Part shown: positions 6,578 to 18,187 of the stretch, one piece after another | How positions within the stretch are numbered: position 1 is the first letter of the stretch | How the letters are laid out: each line of letters starts with the position of its first letter | Origin: Nitrospirota bacterium | GTDB taxonomy: Bacteria; Nitrospirota; Nitrospiria; JACQBW01 | Direction: 5' to 3' | Length of the DNA stretch: 35,287 nt | Assembly (NCBI GenBank): GCA_016194305.1 | Contig: JACQBW010000004.1 | Coordinates: forward strand, 1 to 35,287 | The notes under the pieces: model-generated | The model's input: only the letters and a program-made list of their open reading frames with translations | Told to the model about the DNA's origin: nothing | The model's database searches: none | Program-made: the position numbers and the translations under genes

Positions 6578-7756
6578 TTAGAAAGCTGTAGTAAACCCTA
6601 ATTCAATATGGTCTGTATTTTCAGGATGAATGATTGAAGTATCTTGTATGTCCCGGGTAAATTCTAGAAATAATTTTAAATTTCGGAGAAAATAGTAAGT
6701 CGCGTTAGCTGTTAGGGTATGAATGGTTAGCTCCGGTTTTTCAGTCACTTGCACCCGGTTATACAACAAAACCCCTTTCCAATCATTGCTGAAGTGGTAA
6801 ATTCCTTCCACAAATCCCCCTGTAATACTCAAGACATTCGTAGGATTAGGCAAAAAATCAGGATTGTCATCATTTCCAAACAGCCATTGGGCCTTAAGGT
6901 CCAGCGGAATTCTCCATTGGCTAATACGAATATCAGGGCCCAATCGGTAAAAGTGATTTTTAATTTTGGATGTTAAATCTTCATCTTCACCGTAAAAACC
7001 ATAAAATCCAACTGAAAAGGGATCATATTTGACTTTAAACCTGACATACGGGTCTTTAATACTATTGTTATCAAATTTTCCATTGGTATCGGGTTCGATC
7101 CCATTCCCGTTCACCAGACCGAGGCCCAACTCAAACCATCTTGGAGCGTAAGTAATCTGTACCCCGCGCTGATAGGTTAAATCAAACAGGCTTGCACTGA
7201 CTTGCGTCGTATAAATCGCAATATCTTCGATCGTGAGTCGTAGTTCTCGCGAAAAAACTGGATCTGCAACCTGATATTGTCCAAACATCAAGTCAAGAGG
7301 ATGGCCTCCTATATCGTTAAAGAAAAGGAAAGCGTCTTCAAGTCCCACGACTCTTCCATTTTCATTAGCCAGGAAATAAGAATAAAAAGTAATATCCTTA
7401 CTCAAATAACCGTCCATAAATAGTTTTAAAACGTTTGGGGCCTCAAAATCAGACCGGGTAGTGCCGGAGTTTTGAAGAGAGAAGACACCGTCCGCTCTGA
7501 CGGCAAAATTGACGTTCGGATCGAGAAAAAGTTTCTTATCCCCTGTATCTAATGCCCCTTCTTCAACATTTTTTCCCGGCATTTGGTAACCATTATCCCT
7601 AAAGCGTTCCCCAAAATCATTTAAATTGGGGAATCCTTCATGGCACATGCCACAACCTACCCCAAATTTTCTTGCAAAACCTGGATTCGCAGAAGCTGCC
7701 GAAACAAGAACCAGCAACAAAAAGAGAAAAATAAGAAGGGAAGATACTTTTTTCAT
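6578..7756 (-). CDS. Monoheme cytochrome c-porin fusion, Cyc2-like outer-membrane protein
   Basis: With the start used here the protein has 392 residues. A signal peptide (MKKVSSLLIFLFLLLVLV, cleavage near ASA) is followed by a short heme domain with one CGMCH site (C35, C38, H39). Its surroundings, PGFARKFGVGCGMCH and then NLNDFGERFRDNGYQMPG, resemble the N-terminus of Cyc2-type cytochrome-porins. The remaining 330 residues alternate polar and aromatic residues and end in Phe (GFTTAF), as outer-membrane barrels do. Such fusions move electrons across the outer membrane; the donor here is unknown. An upstream in-frame start at 7819 would put about 21 hydrophilic residues before the signal peptide, so I chose the ATG at 7756, with AAGG nearby. 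It is divergent from the lipoprotein gene at 8063. Confidence 0.72.
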   Translation of the reverse strand: MKKVSSLLIFLFLLLVLVSAASANPGFARKFGVGCGMCHEGFPNLNDFGERFRDNGYQMPGKNVEEGALDTGDKKLFLDPNVNFAVRADGVFSLQNSGTTRSDFEAPNVLKLFMDGYLSKDITFYSYFLANENGRVVGLEDAFLFFNDIGGHPLDLMFGQYQVADPVFSRELRLTIEDIAIYTTQVSASLFDLTYQRGVQITYAPRWFELGLGLVNGNGIEPDTNGKFDNNSIKDPYVRFKVKYDPFSVGFYGFYGEDEDLTSKIKNHFYRLGPDIRISQWRIPLDLKAQWLFGNDDNPDFLPNPTNVLSITGGFVEGIYHFSNDWKGVLLYNRVQVTEKPELTIHTLTANATYYFLRNLKLFLEFTRDIQDTSIIHPENTDHIELGFTTAF

Positions 7757-8062
7757 AAATATGACCTTGCCATTGATCCAATCATCCTGTTTGCCTTTAT
7801 TATGGTTTATTGTTAACACAACTGGCTACTCGATATCCACTTGCATTCATTCTTAATTTGGCCCTGATTCCAAAAAACCGCACGCTTGTCATGACCAGCT
7901 CCCTACAGATTTGTACCTGGACCGGGCCGTCCAGGATCTTGTAAAAATCTTCCCAAAATAAAGAAACTTTAGGAAATTATCTGTGTTTAAACCACAAGTA
8001 TATCTTATGGAAAGATATTGATCTTGCAATTTACCGATTAAATCATTGGAGAGTGGATAAAA
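7757..8062. other. Divergent intergenic region with a 20-base palindrome
   Basis: This 306-base spacer separates the divergent cytochrome-porin and lipoprotein genes. Its clearest element is a perfect palindrome at 7916-7935: CCTGGAC and GTCCAGG arms around CGGGCC. It is not followed by a T-run on either strand, so an operator is more likely than a terminator. I see no ORF and no convincing promoter pair. GGAGAG at 8049-8054 serves the lipoprotein gene. Confidence 0.45.
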
Positions 8063-10857: not shown

Positions 10858-12276
10858 TTACCATCCGGCATCCATCCCGAACACAATTTTCTGATTCCCT
10901 TTCCCCCCCACGGTTTCAGCAAATGAGGAGGCGTTATAATAACTTCCATAACTGTCCGAAAAAGAAAGTGTGACCTTCACATTCTGCATCAGCTCATAGG
11001 TTGCTCCAACCATCAGGTCGTTATCTGTTGCGTTCGTTCCTGACACAGGCGTTCCCAGAACTCCGGGCGCTGTAGAAGGCCCGGTTTCATTGACGCCGCT
11101 GTTGGCAAAGCGAACACCCAATTGAACGGTCGCCTTGCCGGGGAGAACACCCAGTTCGGCACCGAAATTGATCGAGGAGCGGTCCATCGACCCTCCGACA
11201 TTTGCTGACTGGTCATTGAATACATTTTGGACCGGATCGAGCGGGTCGCTTCCTCTGGCTTTGGCAAATGAAATGACAAGAGTCAGGGGGAATCTTTCGA
11301 CATCGTGAAGAAACTGGGCGTCCAGGGCGAAGGCCTCTGTGAGAATCGAAGGGGCGCCAAGCGTTGTGACTGCGCTTGATCCAAACCAGATCTGGGTGCC
11401 AAACCCGATGTCCCAGTTTGAAACGAGACCAGGAGGTGTCGCCGCGAGTCGGATGTAATTGGAGGTCGGGTTTCCGTTAGTCCCTCCGGCCAGATGAGAC
11501 GGCTGCCATTTCGTAAAATTAATAAAGCCGTATTCGTGGCTTGCAATGAGTGCAATGCCGCTTGCAGCGATATTCACACCGGATAATGCGTTAGTGGCAC
11601 GGGCGCTCTTTGGGGAATTGACTGCGACATATTGCTGAGCTGAAAAAGAGGGGAGATCTGACTGGTTAAAGGTATGGGTGGCCACCGCGCCGGTATTCAG
11701 CAATTCAAATCCGTATCCCACCCCGGCATATCCTTGAGCATACGAAAATGGAACGGCTCCGGCATTAAAATCTCCTAGATTCAAAATGATCGGAAGCTTA
11801 AATCCGCTCAAAGCGCCATTTCCGGATGTACAGGCGGCATCCAGACAGGCGCCTGCCAGAAATCCGATATTGGAACTGACGCGTCCTCCCAGGTTGAGGC
11901 GAATGGACTGCGGAATGGATAGGAGACCGTCATTGGTACTGTCTGCGGGAACTTTGCCGGCTGCCGGAGCCGCGTTGGTTCCGTTCGTTCTTTGATAGTT
12001 TACGGATGCCGAAACCGATGCGTTTAAGACCATGGGGATTGAAAGATGGTTTTCACCTTCTATCGTCTGGGAATTCTCCCCGACCATAGTAAACCCCTGA
12101 GACTTGAAATCGCGGCCATATTTGTTTAATACAGGATAGTGTTGAAAATGGCAGGTTTTACATTCCAGATTGGTCTGTCGGGCAAATGCCGGAATCGCAT
12201 TTGCTTCCTCTGGCCAAAGCGGGACCGTGATTAAGAGCGCCAATGAAAGAAAGACCCATTTTATCATAGTAACCAT
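10858..12276 (-). CDS. Cyc2-like fused cytochrome c-porin
   Basis: With the start used here the protein has 472 residues. A signal peptide (MVTMIKWVFLSLALLI, ending EEANA) is followed by the mature start IPAFARQTNLECKTCHFQHY. The single heme site CKTCH has C39, C42 and H43, and NKYGRDFKSQGFTMVG follows. This FARQT-CxxCH-FGR pattern fits the outer-membrane Fe(II)-oxidising cytochrome Cyc2 family better than the cytochrome-porin at 6578-7756. The remainder is a barrel-like sequence ending in an aromatic residue (GMDAGW). The ATG at 12276 has AAAGGG just upstream; a longer in-frame start would put basic residues before the signal peptide. It is the first gene of an operon with the cupredoxin-like gene. 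Electron donor and direction are not known. Confidence 0.78.
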   Translation of the reverse strand: MVTMIKWVFLSLALLITVPLWPEEANAIPAFARQTNLECKTCHFQHYPVLNKYGRDFKSQGFTMVGENSQTIEGENHLSIPMVLNASVSASVNYQRTNGTNAAPAAGKVPADSTNDGLLSIPQSIRLNLGGRVSSNIGFLAGACLDAACTSGNGALSGFKLPIILNLGDFNAGAVPFSYAQGYAGVGYGFELLNTGAVATHTFNQSDLPSFSAQQYVAVNSPKSARATNALSGVNIAASGIALIASHEYGFINFTKWQPSHLAGGTNGNPTSNYIRLAATPPGLVSNWDIGFGTQIWFGSSAVTTLGAPSILTEAFALDAQFLHDVERFPLTLVISFAKARGSDPLDPVQNVFNDQSANVGGSMDRSSINFGAELGVLPGKATVQLGVRFANSGVNETGPSTAPGVLGTPVSGTNATDNDLMVGATYELMQNVKVTLSFSDSYGSYYNASSFAETVGGKGNQKIVFGMDAGW

Positions 12277-12376
12277 AAAACCCTTTCTTAAATAAGAAAA
12301 TCGCCTAGTTAAATTAAATGTAAACAATTTTTCTGATTTGTCAAATGACCAACCTTAGAAAAAGTGGCCGAACAGA

Positions 12377-12743: not shown

Positions 12744-12771
12744 TTGACAGAAATCAAATTCCTGCTACCTT
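12744..12771 (+). promoter_or_regulatory. Promoter of the riboswitch transcript
   Basis: A perfect -35 box TTGACA (12744-12749) is followed after 16 bases by a weak -10, TACCTT. The predicted start near 12778 falls about a dozen bases before the aptamer's P1 helix, as expected for a riboswitch leader. Confidence 0.5.
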
Positions 12772-12790
12772 TTAAGATAAGCAGAACGGA

Positions 12791-12886
12791 ATCTAGAAAA
12801 GAGTAAACCAATCGAAAGATTGGGGCACAAAGCTTCAAGGCTTCCCTCCCCGGAAAAGGAGAGGATGCCAGTTGGGCTGCCTAGAT
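12791..12886 (+). ncRNA. Cyclic-di-GMP class I (GEMM-I) riboswitch aptamer
   Basis: The segment matches the GEMM-I aptamer. P1 is ATCTAG (12791-12796) with CTAGAT (12881-12886). P2 is CCAATC-GAAA-GATTGG (12808-12823), with the GNRA tetraloop that docks in P3. The conserved block GGGGCACAAAGC (12822-12833) aligns without gaps to the Vc2 aptamer. The positions equivalent to Vc2 G20, A47 and C92, which contact the ligand, appear as G12803, A12830 and C12880. G rather than A at position 20 predicts c-di-GMP and not 3',3'-cGAMP. The aptamer precedes a FIST gene and a GGDEF-EAL gene, an apt regulon for this ligand. Confidence 0.88.
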
Positions 12887-12925
12887 CATCGACCCATGAC
12901 ATTTTCCAATCAATGGATCAGGCGG

Positions 12926-12961
12926 CCCATCTCCTAGGTTTCAGGAAATGGGTTTTTTTTT
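12926..12961 (+). terminator. Riboswitch expression platform: intrinsic terminator
   Basis: CCCATCTCCT (12926-12935) pairs with AGGAAATGGG (12943-12952), with one C-A mismatch and a seven-base loop, and nine T follow (12953-12961). The 5' arm overlaps AGGCGGCCCA (12920-12929), which can instead pair with TGGGCTGCCT of the aptamer 3' strand (12873-12882, one G-U). The two folds exclude each other. Ligand binding should therefore free the terminator, an OFF switch. Confidence 0.85.
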
Positions 12962-13006
12962 GGCATTCATTAACGAGATGAGTTTATTAATCAAAGGAGA
13001 TTGAAT

Positions 13007-14146
13007 ATGAAGATTGAACAGAATCGATGGAAGCCGGATAAGGGCTGGCAATCAGGAGAACCTGGAACGCTGGGAAATTCAGCCCACATGGTCTTAGTCT
13101 TTGGGTCAAGAATGGCATTAAGAAACCGGGATCTCGTCGAAAAAATCCAGAAATCTTATCCCAGGGCCCAGATACTCGGCTGTTCCACAGCAGGAGAAAT
13201 TTGTGGTACGGAAGTCTCAGATGACTCTTTGGTTATGACCGCTGTTCGATTCGACCACACCGAGATAAGAGGGGCAAAAGTAAATATTGACGGAAGTGGA
13301 AACAGTTTTCAATACGGGGAAAGACTTGCCCAGTCTCTCCAAAAAAAGGGATTGAGACACGTATTTGTCATTTCGGAAGGATTGAATATCAGTGGAAGCG
13401 AACTTGTGGACGGCTTGTCAAAACATCTGCCTCCCCATGTCACCGTGACCGGCGGACTTTCGGGAGACGGTGCGCTTTTCAAAGAAACGATTGTCCTCTG
13501 GAATGATTCTCCAAAACAAGATGTTGTCGCCGTCCTGGGCTTTTATGGCGACCGATTAAAGGTGGGGTACGGAGCGATGGGAGGATGGGATCCATTTGGT
13601 CCTGAGAGGCTTATCACCCGGTCGAAAGGGAATGTTTTATATGAAATCGATGGAAAATCAGCTCTCGATCTTTATAAGAATTATCTTGGAGAACATGCCA
13701 AGGGACTTCCGGGAACGGCACTCCATTTTCCGTTGAGTCTTCGAAAAACGGAAGGGAGCAACAGTGTCGTCAGAACGATTTTGTCCGTCGACGAACAGGA
13801 CAGGAGCATGATCTTTGCGGGTGATGTCCCACAGGGAGTCAATGCACGGCTCATGCGAGCAAATTTCGAACGGCTGATCGATGGTTCGGCCGATGCCGCA
13901 AGAACCAGTTACGAAGCGATGGGGGCATCGGTTCCTGAATTGGCACTTCTCATCAGTTGTGTCGGTCGAAAACTGGTACTCAAGCAGAGAACTGAAGAAG
14001 AGGTGGAAGGGGTGCGGGAAGTAATGGGTGATCAGACCGTACTGGCCGGGTTCTATTCCTACGGTGGCATTTCGCCTTTTGCACCGGAGACAAAATGTGA
14101 ATTTCATAACCAATCGATGACCATCACAACTTTTTCAGAAAATTAA
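13007..14146 (+). CDS. FIST-domain sensory protein
   Basis: A 379-residue cytoplasmic protein made of a FIST N domain (about 25-215, including LVFGSRMALRNRDLV and LGCSTAGEICGTEVSDDSLV) and a FIST C domain (about 220-370, including LALLISCVGRKLVL and LAGFYSYGGISPFA). FIST modules bind small ligands, probably amino-acid-like, and feed signal transduction. Here no output domain is attached. The ATG at 13007 has AAGGAGA seven bases upstream; the in-frame TTG at 13001 is not needed. The stop codon shares one base with the next gene's ATG (TAATG), so sensor and GGDEF-EAL enzyme are probably made together and may interact. Expression is under the c-di-GMP riboswitch. Confidence 0.88.
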   Translation: MKIEQNRWKPDKGWQSGEPGTLGNSAHMVLVFGSRMALRNRDLVEKIQKSYPRAQILGCSTAGEICGTEVSDDSLVMTAVRFDHTEIRGAKVNIDGSGNSFQYGERLAQSLQKKGLRHVFVISEGLNISGSELVDGLSKHLPPHVTVTGGLSGDGALFKETIVLWNDSPKQDVVAVLGFYGDRLKVGYGAMGGWDPFGPERLITRSKGNVLYEIDGKSALDLYKNYLGEHAKGLPGTALHFPLSLRKTEGSNSVVRTILSVDEQDRSMIFAGDVPQGVNARLMRANFERLIDGSADAARTSYEAMGASVPELALLISCVGRKLVLKQRTEEEVEGVREVMGDQTVLAGFYSYGGISPFAPETKCEFHNQSMTITTFSEN

Positions 14147-16404
14147 TGATGGAAAATGTACATAGTCTACTCAGGCGACAGTTAAAGAGGTATTTTCGCG
14201 GGACCTCGTCTGTACCCCAGGAACTATCGCAATTTACGCAGGCGATTAATGAAGCCTATAAACAGTTTGACGAAGACCGGATTCTGTTTGAGCGATCGCT
14301 TGAAATCAGTTCGAGAGAGCTGTTTCAAGTTAATTCCTATCTGCAAGGGATTATTACCAGCAGCGTCGATGGCATATTTGCATTCGACCAAAAATTTCAC
14401 ATTACCGTATGGAATCCAGGCATGGCCACGATTACCGGCATGAGTACGGTTGAAGCGCTCGGTCAATATGCCCCCGATCTGCTCCCTTTTTTCAAAGACT
14501 CCATCGGGCTGGATTTCTTTCTGGTTCGCGAGAGAAATCGAAACGTCATCCCGAACGACAAACAGTATATTCTTTCGAAGTCGGGAGAAAAAATATTTAT
14601 TGAAAGCCGGCATTCTTTTCTAAAAAACCAGTCCGGCGATGTTCTGGGCGGAATTTCAATCATCAGGGATGTCACCGATCGGCGCCACTCCGAAGAGGAA
14701 CAAAAACAGACTCTTTCTTTGCTGAATGCCACGCTGGAATCGACAACTGACGGGATCTTGGTGGTCGATAAAGAAGGGAAAAAAATATTAAAATATAATG
14801 AACAGTTTTTGAAATTGTGGAATATTCCGGAGTGCGTCCTTCAAAAAATTCGAGAAACTTTCGACGACCGGCCGTTATTGGCCCATGTCTCGTCCCAGAT
14901 TAAAGATCCCGTCTCATTCTTCAAAAAAGTCATGGATTTATACAGCCATCCGGAAGAAGAGAGTTTTGATACCCTGGAATTGGCTGATGGAAGAATCTTC
15001 GAACGATATTCAAAACCTCAAAGGGTCGGAGAAAAGAATATCGGACGGGTCTGGAGTTTTCGAGACGTAACCCGGAGGAGAAAAGATGAAGAAAGACTCA
15101 ATTATCTCGCAAACTTTGACTCCTTGACGGCCCTTCCTAACCGGACACTGTTTCATGACCGGCTTGGGCAGGCGATTTCAAGGGCTTCATGGAACAAACG
15201 TGCAGTGGCCGTTCTCTTTCTTGATCTGGACCGATTTAAAAACATCAACGACACCTTTGGGCACACTTTCGGTGACCTGTTGTTGAAAGCCGTGGCGGAA
15301 CGATTGCGAAAATGCATCCGGGATGGCGACACCGTGGCCCGATTGGGAGGAGACGAATTTGTGATCATTCTTGATGATCTTGCCACGCCGAATCACACCC
15401 TTTTTATCGCCGAGAAAATTCTCTCCGGCCTGTCAAAACCCTTTGTCTTACAGGACCGGGAACTCTACATTACCACAAGTATCGGAATTGCGATTTATCC
15501 GAATGACGGCGATCATTACGAAATGTTGATTCGAAATGCCGATACTGCCATGTACCGGGCCAAAGAGCAGGGTAAAAACAACTACCAGATCTATTCTCCT
15601 GAACTCAATGAAAAAGTCTCCGAACGACTGGCTCTTGAAAATAGTCTTCGCCATGCAATGGAAAGGGATGAGTTTCTGCTTTATTATCAACCTAAAATAG
15701 ACCTGATTTCCGGAAAGATTATCGGTGTTGAGGCGCTCATCCGCTGGTTAAGTCCGGTGAATAAACAAATTGTACTGCCCGGGGAATTTATCTCGCTTGC
15801 GGAGGAGATAGGGTTAATCTTGCCGATGGGAGAGTGGGTCTTACAGGCGGCTTGTGCTCAGAACAAGGCCTGGCAAATGACTGGACTCACTCCGATCGGC
15901 ATGGCCATAAATATTTCAGCAACGCAGTTTCAACAACAGAATCTTTCGGAAATGATTTCCAATACCCTGAAGGAGAGCGGATTGGATCCAAAATATCTCG
16001 AACTTGAAATTACCGAAAGTACGATTATGAAAAGCGCGGAAAACGCTGAAATGACACTGAAGAGACTTGACGAATTGGGAATCGATATCTCAATCGACGA
16101 TTTCGGAACCGGTTATTCCTCGCTCGGTTATCTGAAGCGATTCCCTGTTTCGACTCTAAAAATAGATCGAACTTTTGTTCGGGATATTTCTACCAATTCC
16201 GATGATAAAAGATTGGTCGGAGCCATTATCACCCTTGCTCACAGTCTAAAGTTAAAAGTCGTGGCTGAAGGGGTGGAAACAAGAGAACAACTCCATTATT
16301 TGCAATCTGTAGGTTGTGATCAAATCCAGGGCTTTCTCTTCAGCAAACCACTCTCCGGGAAAGAAATGACCCAGCTGCTCATTCAGAACAGACCTTTGAG
16401 ATAA
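14146..16404 (+). CDS. PAS-PAS-GGDEF-EAL cyclic-di-GMP turnover protein
   Basis: A 752-residue cytoplasmic protein. A helical N-terminus (1-60) is followed by two PAS domains (about 62-185 and 185-322), GGDEF (about 326-490) and EAL (about 500-745). The cyclase motif GGDEF (401-405) is intact, and an inhibitory I-site RxxD (RDGD) sits five residues before it. The phosphodiesterase half keeps EAL (529-531), DDFGTGYSS, KIDRTFV, EGVET and the terminal QGFLFSKP. Both activities could be real, with PAS input or the coupled FIST protein setting the balance. No membrane segment is present. Riboswitch control from upstream would make its expression respond to its own product or substrate. Confidence 0.95.
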   Translation: MMENVHSLLRRQLKRYFRGTSSVPQELSQFTQAINEAYKQFDEDRILFERSLEISSRELFQVNSYLQGIITSSVDGIFAFDQKFHITVWNPGMATITGMSTVEALGQYAPDLLPFFKDSIGLDFFLVRERNRNVIPNDKQYILSKSGEKIFIESRHSFLKNQSGDVLGGISIIRDVTDRRHSEEEQKQTLSLLNATLESTTDGILVVDKEGKKILKYNEQFLKLWNIPECVLQKIRETFDDRPLLAHVSSQIKDPVSFFKKVMDLYSHPEEESFDTLELADGRIFERYSKPQRVGEKNIGRVWSFRDVTRRRKDEERLNYLANFDSLTALPNRTLFHDRLGQAISRASWNKRAVAVLFLDLDRFKNINDTFGHTFGDLLLKAVAERLRKCIRDGDTVARLGGDEFVIILDDLATPNHTLFIAEKILSGLSKPFVLQDRELYITTSIGIAIYPNDGDHYEMLIRNADTAMYRAKEQGKNNYQIYSPELNEKVSERLALENSLRHAMERDEFLLYYQPKIDLISGKIIGVEALIRWLSPVNKQIVLPGEFISLAEEIGLILPMGEWVLQAACAQNKAWQMTGLTPIGMAINISATQFQQQNLSEMISNTLKESGLDPKYLELEITESTIMKSAENAEMTLKRLDELGIDISIDDFGTGYSSLGYLKRFPVSTLKIDRTFVRDISTNSDDKRLVGAIITLAHSLKLKVVAEGVETREQLHYLQSVGCDQIQGFLFSKPLSGKEMTQLLIQNRPLR

Positions 16405-16591
16405 ATTCCATTTTATCGCCGATTTTCCCCATTTTTTGGTATAATAAATCATTTTTTATATTAATGATAATGATCCAGGCATATTTTTATTGTCTCGGTT
16501 ATTTCAACAGGATGTGAATGGATCCATATCAAAATAAGCTCTGATGTAATAGGGTTTGTCAATTTCGCAAATTAAAAGGGAAAGAGCCAAA

Positions 16592-18187
16592 ATGTCTCCC
16601 CGTTCAAAAGGGCTCAAAAAGGATAAGAAAATTCGAAAATTCAAAGAACGTAAAGATGACGAACGGCTTCGTCAGATTTTTCGTATCTCGGGAATCGGAA
16701 TATTTGATCACGATCATCTGAGCGACTCATTCCACTTTTCTGAGGAACTTCGGGCGATTTTCGGTTGGGACACCCAAGAAAAAGCGACGCTGGAAAAGAT
16801 GATGGATCAGATTCATCCCTCAGACCGAAAACGGGTGGCAGCGGCGGTAAAAAGAGCAGAGGATCCGTCAGGCGATGGAAAATTGGAACTCGATCACCGG
16901 ATCTTGATAGATAAAAGGGTCGTCCGTTGGATAACGAGGCGTTCACAAACGTCTTTTAAAGAAAAGAGGGGCACTCGTTTTCCTGCTCGAACCGTGGGCG
17001 CTTTTCTGGATGTCACCGAACGGAAAAGAATGGAGGAGGAATTATTAAAGATTCAAAAGCTTGAATCGCTGGAGGTGATGGCAGGAGGCATTGCTCATGA
17101 TTTTAATAATGTCTTAACGGGTATTATGGGCAATCTTTCGTTAGCCCTCTCGTGGGGTTCTCTGAATGACGAGACTCTTACCCGGTTAAAATCGGCTGAA
17201 AAAGCCTCTCTCCGGGCCAAAGAGCTGGCTAACCAGCTTTTGAGTTTTTCTAAAGGAGATCCTCCCTCTAAGAAACCGACTTCAATGAGAGAAATGTTGG
17301 AGAATTCCGTTCGTTTTGCGCTAACAGGAACCCGGATCGTCACCCGGTTTTCTATTGATAAGAATCTCTGGACAGTCGAAATCGACGATGGACAGATCCA
17401 CCAGGTCATTCAGAACCTGGTCATAAATGCCTTGCAGGCAATGCCGCAAGGGGGAACCCTTCAGGTTTCGGGAAAAAACATCCAGGTCATGAAAGATCGG
17501 GACGAAACGAAAGCTTTAAAGGAAGGGAAATATGTCAGAATATCTTTTAAAGATTCCGGAATAGGCATCAAGAAGAGTCATCTTTCAAAAATATTTGATC
17601 CTTATTTCACAACCAAACTCAAAGGAAGCGGTCTGGGTCTCTGGATATCTTATTCAGTGATCAGGAGACATACAGGTTTAATTACAGTCGAGTCAAGTCC
17701 AGGAAAGGGAACCACCTTTCACATTTATCTCCCTGCGTCGACCAAAAAGCCATTGGCAAAAAAGGAGATTGAAGAGCTCAAGAAAGGGAAGGGAAGAATC
17801 CTTGTTATTGATGATGAAGAGAGCGTTCTCGACGTTGCGGGAGAGATGATTCGAAACCTCAAATACAGCGCGGATAGGGCCATAACCGGAACGGAAGGAC
17901 TACAGAAGTATGTAGAAGCACGGGAGGGGGGAGAACCGTTTGACCTGGTCATGACTGACCTGACGCTTCCCGGGGGGCTATCAGGCCTTGAAATACTTAA
18001 GCAATTAAAGGGGCTGAATCCGAATGTCAAAGTAATCGTATCAAGCGGTTACTCGAATGACCCGGTGATAGAAGGTTTTCAGCAGTTCGGATTCGACGGT
18101 TATATTGCCAAACCCTACCGGATTTATGAACTGAGCAGGACGCTGGACCTGGTGCTCAATTCTGAATTACCCAACCCTTTGATCTAG
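16592..18187 (+). CDS. PAS hybrid histidine kinase with C-terminal receiver
   Basis: With the start used here the protein has 531 residues. A very basic N-terminus (MSPRSKGLKKDKKIRKFKER) precedes one PAS domain (about 25-145). A HisKA-type helix pair carries the phospho-acceptor H169 (GGIAHDFNN). A HATPase domain (about 265-390) has the N box NLVINALQAM and the G boxes DSGIGI and GSGLGLWI. A receiver domain (about 405-520) has acceptor D456 (LVMTDLTLPGG) and the KPY lysine. No transmembrane segment is seen, so sensing is cytoplasmic. The ATG at 16592 has AGGGAAAG upstream; a TTG 36 bases earlier lacks a binding site. It lies 187 bases after the GGDEF-EAL gene. The spacer has an isolated TATAAT (16440-16445), so a separate promoter is possible. 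Confidence 0.92.
   Translation: MSPRSKGLKKDKKIRKFKERKDDERLRQIFRISGIGIFDHDHLSDSFHFSEELRAIFGWDTQEKATLEKMMDQIHPSDRKRVAAAVKRAEDPSGDGKLELDHRILIDKRVVRWITRRSQTSFKEKRGTRFPARTVGAFLDVTERKRMEEELLKIQKLESLEVMAGGIAHDFNNVLTGIMGNLSLALSWGSLNDETLTRLKSAEKASLRAKELANQLLSFSKGDPPSKKPTSMREMLENSVRFALTGTRIVTRFSIDKNLWTVEIDDGQIHQVIQNLVINALQAMPQGGTLQVSGKNIQVMKDRDETKALKEGKYVRISFKDSGIGIKKSHLSKIFDPYFTTKLKGSGLGLWISYSVIRRHTGLITVESSPGKGTTFHIYLPASTKKPLAKKEIEELKKGKGRILVIDDEESVLDVAGEMIRNLKYSADRAITGTEGLQKYVEAREGGEPFDLVMTDLTLPGGLSGLEILKQLKGLNPNVKVIVSSGYSNDPVIEGFQQFGFDGYIAKPYRIYELSRTLDLVLNSELPNPLI

Follow-up and report, generated by a model that had tools for sequence, protein, structure and literature searches.

Class I cyclic-dinucleotide riboswitches (GEMM-I; Rfam c-di-GMP-I, RF01051) include Vc2 and Cd1, and the cGAMP-binding GEMM-Ib subclass of Geobacter is marked by an A at position 20 of the Vc2 numbering (PMC6456294, PMC6274999). 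A G20A mutant of Vc2 can bind cGAMP (PMC7288161). The G20A change alone can leave c-di-GMP binding intact, and literature cited in PMC9262584 describes position 20 as a selectivity factor, not a hard filter. On the enzyme side, Ser348 and Tyr304 of GacA are residues tied to cGAMP production, and replacing Tyr304 with Arg pushes the products toward c-di-GMP (PMC6456294); GSU1937 is the second Geobacter synthase (PMC8835794). NosP is a FIST-FIST_C heme/NO sensor that is encoded with c-di-GMP enzymes (PMC12570481, PMC8846402, PMC11237717).

We analysed a 35,287-nucleotide stretch of Nitrospirota DNA (the window), in which a class I riboswitch precedes a FIST gene. The aptamer including P1 spans 12791..12886 (+), with a fold z-score of -2.2. 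RF01051 matches 12792–12884 (+) with 63.4 bits (E 2.6e-10), above the gathering score of 35 by which membership is decided on the covariance-model score. The first-pass annotation had placed a GEMM-I riboswitch at 12791–12886, proposed the Rfam model as a check, and listed P1, a GAAA-capped P2 and the CACAAAGC core; all three elements are present, and P1 consists of AUCUAG (12791–12796) paired with CUAGAU (12881–12886). Judged by its model score and these elements, the RNA is a genuine class I cyclic-dinucleotide riboswitch, and it is like Vc2 and Cd1 in aptamer fold, P1, capped P2 and core.

It is unlike Vc2 and Cd1 in the specificity base and in its targets, a FIST gene and a GGDEF-EAL gene. 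For the numbering we used what we take to be the Vc2 sequence. Its letters 14–21 and 46–50 match the contacts given in PMC7288161, while the numbering is shifted by one base at the 3' end. The J1/2-P2 ligand-contact segment is A18 G19 A20 G21 U22 (12800..12804, +), and position 20 is an A at 12802 in both the Rfam alignment and the Vc2-numbered alignment, not the G that had been reported. The register is set by the pairs G21-C46 (12803–12828) and U22-A45 (12804–12827); a one-base shift that would give G at position 20 is ruled out by these pairs and by the related copies L001 and L046. The window aptamer therefore lacks the G20 of the c-di-GMP-preferring type and has the A20 of GEMM-Ib, equivalent to A14 of 4YAZ in the Geobacter switches (Gs1761/pgcA, pilM), although it keeps the Vc2-like G21-C46 pair adjoining J1/2 where the Geobacter switch has C15-G40. 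The earlier call of a c-di-GMP riboswitch before FIST thus holds as to class and position and loses its ground as to ligand, since that part rested on G at position 20. The genome has five class I copies; only the window copy has A20, and the four G20 copies precede genes that we read as encoding a lipoprotein, two large secreted proteins and a PilZ protein.

The first regulated gene (13007..14146, +; start codon ATG at 13007, RBS AGGAG at 12995–12999) encodes a NosP-like FIST-FIST_C protein of 379 aa, which passes the Pfam cut-offs of FIST (PF08495, 172.8 bits) and FIST_C (PF10442, 128.1 bits). Against the NCBIfam NosP model (NF041558) it scores only 57.7 bits, below the equivalog cut-off of 450, so that NO sensing is assigned by analogy; by that analogy the protein is probably a heme/NO sensor. 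A PDB sequence search with it gave nothing useful. Its stop codon is overlapped by the start of a gene for a 752-aa PAS-PAS-GGDEF-EAL protein (14146..16404, +; Pfam and sequence) with a canonical GGDEF domain (GD, GGDEF, RxxD I-site) and an EAL domain with DDFG, and the catalytic motifs appear intact. The remark in the first-pass annotation that the FIST sensor lacks an output domain holds for the protein itself; an output is, however, provided by the gene that follows in the operon. A hybrid histidine kinase (PAS-HisKA-HATPase-REC; 16556..18187, +; Pfam) is possibly on the same transcript; we looked for a terminator-like site between 16404 and 16556 and found none, and the kinase gene is not kept beside FIST at two other loci (L080, L081). 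The arrangement resembles NosP/NahK/NarR operons and V. cholerae CdpA (FIST-EAL) in that a stand-alone FIST-FIST_C protein is encoded with GGDEF-EAL and followed by a hybrid histidine kinase. It differs from NosP/NahK/NarR operons in its GGDEF-EAL protein, which carries PAS domains but lacks a receiver, and for none of these systems is riboswitch control reported in the literature found. Taken together, we infer from the sequence that the locus would place a gas-sensor-like c-di-GMP turnover module under cyclic-dinucleotide control. Elsewhere in the window, 6578–7819 and 10858–12327 (-) encode two exported proteins, each with one CxxCH near the N-terminus; the larger had no match in a Pfam search.

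Within the class, FIST orthologues occur in 60 of 167 genomes. The gene after FIST is, at most loci read there, related to the GGDEF-EAL gene of the window. We rejected the FIST-GGDEF pair as a novelty, as it is widespread in the class; the genome itself has a second FIST and GGDEF pair (G000:C35:35663-37852), without a riboswitch. A class I riboswitch was found at none of 20 other FIST loci, including this 61%-identical FIST paralogue, nor at the only two FIST loci, both with named records, that a FIST scan of genome contigs gave, in keeping with the first-pass view of FIST as an unusual GEMM target. From the 20 loci we conclude that the riboswitch-FIST wiring is lineage-specific.

As to the source of a ligand, 27 GGDEF matches were found in the genome, and one with an intact GGDEF motif bears the Hypr serine (GHQAGSQVL...GGDEF). 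The best PDB match of this protein (L017) is 6d9m, G. metallireducens GacA, with 157 bits (119 bits for the next entry), and both have Ser348 and Tyr304, as well as the GGDEF motif and a GAF domain. Unlike GacA, it is 377 aa long and begins at the GAF domain, with no receiver domain seen; its gene lies beside secA, unlinked to the window riboswitch. We predict from these residues that it is a GacA-like enzyme making cGAMP, which gives the genome a candidate cGAMP synthase (Hypr GGDEF with Ser348), as expected alongside a GEMM-Ib switch. A second Hypr-serine protein (G000:C8:168446-168751; HAMP-GGDDF) is likened to Geobacter GSU1937 by its description. Both of the family's other genomes have orthologues of the Hypr protein, with 85% identity in G001 and 80% in G002, the latter a fragment stopping short of the serine.

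The A20 aptamer has an orthologue (L046) in G002, which belongs to another genus of the family (clade support 95/94). Its J1/2 is identical to that of the window, A20 included, and it has diverged elsewhere; its contig ends 90 bases beyond the riboswitch, and no FIST gene above threshold was found in that genome. The two copies fall in a mostly G20 subfamily, whose members usually lie ahead of a gene for a conserved lipoprotein; A20 arose there more than once. Copies ahead of this lipoprotein (~740–890 aa) are found in several families (L048, L085, L089, L196–L214 across the class, and G000:C25:74234-74321), with A20 in three genomes. In one of them (G298), near-identical A20 (L089, contig C18) and G20 (L198, contig C62) aptamers precede two different lipoproteins. 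Elsewhere, the gene immediately behind an A20 riboswitch (G323:C90:136910-136942) is multiheme cytochrome-like (CMGCH, CLSCH), as are Geobacter cGAMP targets.

In a phylum sample of 396 genomes, RF01051 was found in 174, an A20-type core in 35 and a Hypr-type GGDEF pattern in 157. Among GEMM-bearing genomes, the Hypr pattern is present in 29/35 with A20 versus 84/139 without (Fisher p 0.017, phylogeny ignored); within the class the figures are 8/12 for A20 genomes and 7/35 for G20-only genomes (Fisher p 0.009, phylogeny likewise ignored). The Hypr pattern search gave no match in six A20 genomes, G127, G232, G254 and G320 of family f3, and G235 and G301; conversely, G001 has Hypr and no A20 copy. 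Because of A20 without Hypr in f3 and Hypr without A20 in G001, the association supports a cGAMP ligand and does not prove it. The chief evidence against that ligand is that some relatives have A20 and no Hypr enzyme. A20 alone as proof of cGAMP was rejected, given the counter-examples in f3.

With A20 and a GacA-like enzyme in the same genome, the RNA probably senses cGAMP and perhaps c-di-GMP too, and on these sequence features 3',3'-cGAMP would be at least as likely a ligand as c-di-GMP. Overall we lean toward a GEMM-Ib-like (A20) class I riboswitch of cGAMP type, with c-di-GMP binding possible, acting as an OFF switch on the FIST and PAS-GGDEF-EAL operon. Less probable, though a serious competitor, is an ordinary c-di-GMP riboswitch that tolerates A20, perhaps with relaxed specificity, in plain feedback on an operon that metabolises c-di-GMP. 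The partner gene is predicted to make and degrade c-di-GMP, and the genome encodes many ordinary GGDEF proteins. A20 copies also occur in genomes without a Hypr pattern match, some of them beside near-identical G20 paralogues (G254 has A20 at C1:1139953 and G20 at C1:1143029). Since the G-to-A change arose repeatedly in one subfamily, it may reflect drift or dual specificity. Against this, the A20 orthologue is kept in another genus, A20 is known to shift selectivity toward cGAMP, and the same genome has a gene for the GacA-like Hypr enzyme.

Downstream of the aptamer, the leader carries an expression platform. A candidate sigma-70-like promoter was read at 12744..12771 (+), with TTGACA (12744–12749), 16 nt ending in TGC, and TACCTT (12766–12771). 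A consensus promoter scan did not list it because its -10 box is weak; elements with equal spacing recur upstream of L046 (TTGACA-16-TATCAT) and L048 (TTGACA-16-TACCTT). The terminator with nine T that had been noted after the aptamer was found at 12924..12961 (+; -13.1 kcal/mol), formed by 12924–12930/12948–12954 and 12932–12935/12943–12946, with the T tract at 12953–12961. A predicted antiterminator (12874..12928, +; hairpin -22.2 kcal/mol, z -2.8) pairs 12874–12882 with 12920–12928 (9 bp) and 12884–12887 with 12916–12919 (4 bp). These 13 bp take up the aptamer 3' strand (12874–12887), excluding P1/P3, and exclude the terminator, whose 5' arm (12924–12935) overlaps the segment 12916–12928. 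The duplex has -24.1 kcal/mol, and none of 5000 shuffles was as good. The analogous duplex of L046, changed in sequence and still complementary, has -19.3 kcal/mol (55/5000 shuffles as good), and its terminator is also present (-14.6 kcal/mol).

Computed folds of the window leader give -59.9 kcal/mol with the antiterminator and -51.0 kcal/mol with aptamer plus terminator. Because the unliganded leader favours the antiterminator, which uses the aptamer 3' strand, ligand should cause termination, and we predict ligand-OFF transcriptional control of the operon. Binding would lock P1/P3 and bar GGGCUGCCUAGAUC from pairing with GAUCAGGCGGCCC, so that the terminator would form and the operon would be off; with no ligand, the antiterminator would form and the operon would be transcribed. 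Were the ligand cGAMP, it would repress a gas-sensing c-di-GMP turnover module, unlike the cytochromes and pili targeted in Geobacter. A ligand-ON switch, in which binding blocks the terminator, is unlikely here. The Geobacter GEMM-Ib switches, pilM included, are ON (PMC9262584, PMC6456294), which is typical of characterised members and not strictly defining. In the window, however, the aptamer can form together with the terminator, and the terminator-destroying helix takes the aptamer 3' strand, a layout like that described for the c-di-GMP OFF switch Cd1 (PMC9262584). That the RNA is a decayed, non-functional GEMM-I relic is very improbable: it is the single GEMM-I copy upstream of FIST among all genomes sampled, but it has a high Rfam score and contacts intact except for the G-to-A change, and L046 keeps promoter, antiterminator and terminator with complementary changes.

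Pairs of near-identical A20 and G20 copies occur naturally within single genomes, in G298 and, in the genome studied here, as L001 and the window copy; they make the long-standing question of single-base re-specification of GEMM-I directly testable. We tentatively propose, as a possibility somewhat short of an even chance, that this lineage uses cGAMP signalling through a GacA-like Hypr GGDEF enzyme and A20 riboswitches, beyond the described groups, and has wired it in the OFF sense to a FIST/NosP-like and GGDEF-EAL operon. If the ligand is cGAMP, Hypr/cGAMP signalling would reach a phylum for which the literature found does not name it, and one cyclic-dinucleotide pathway would govern the enzymes of another by RNA. 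If the proposal is true, one cyclic dinucleotide would directly repress the gas-responsive turnover of another.
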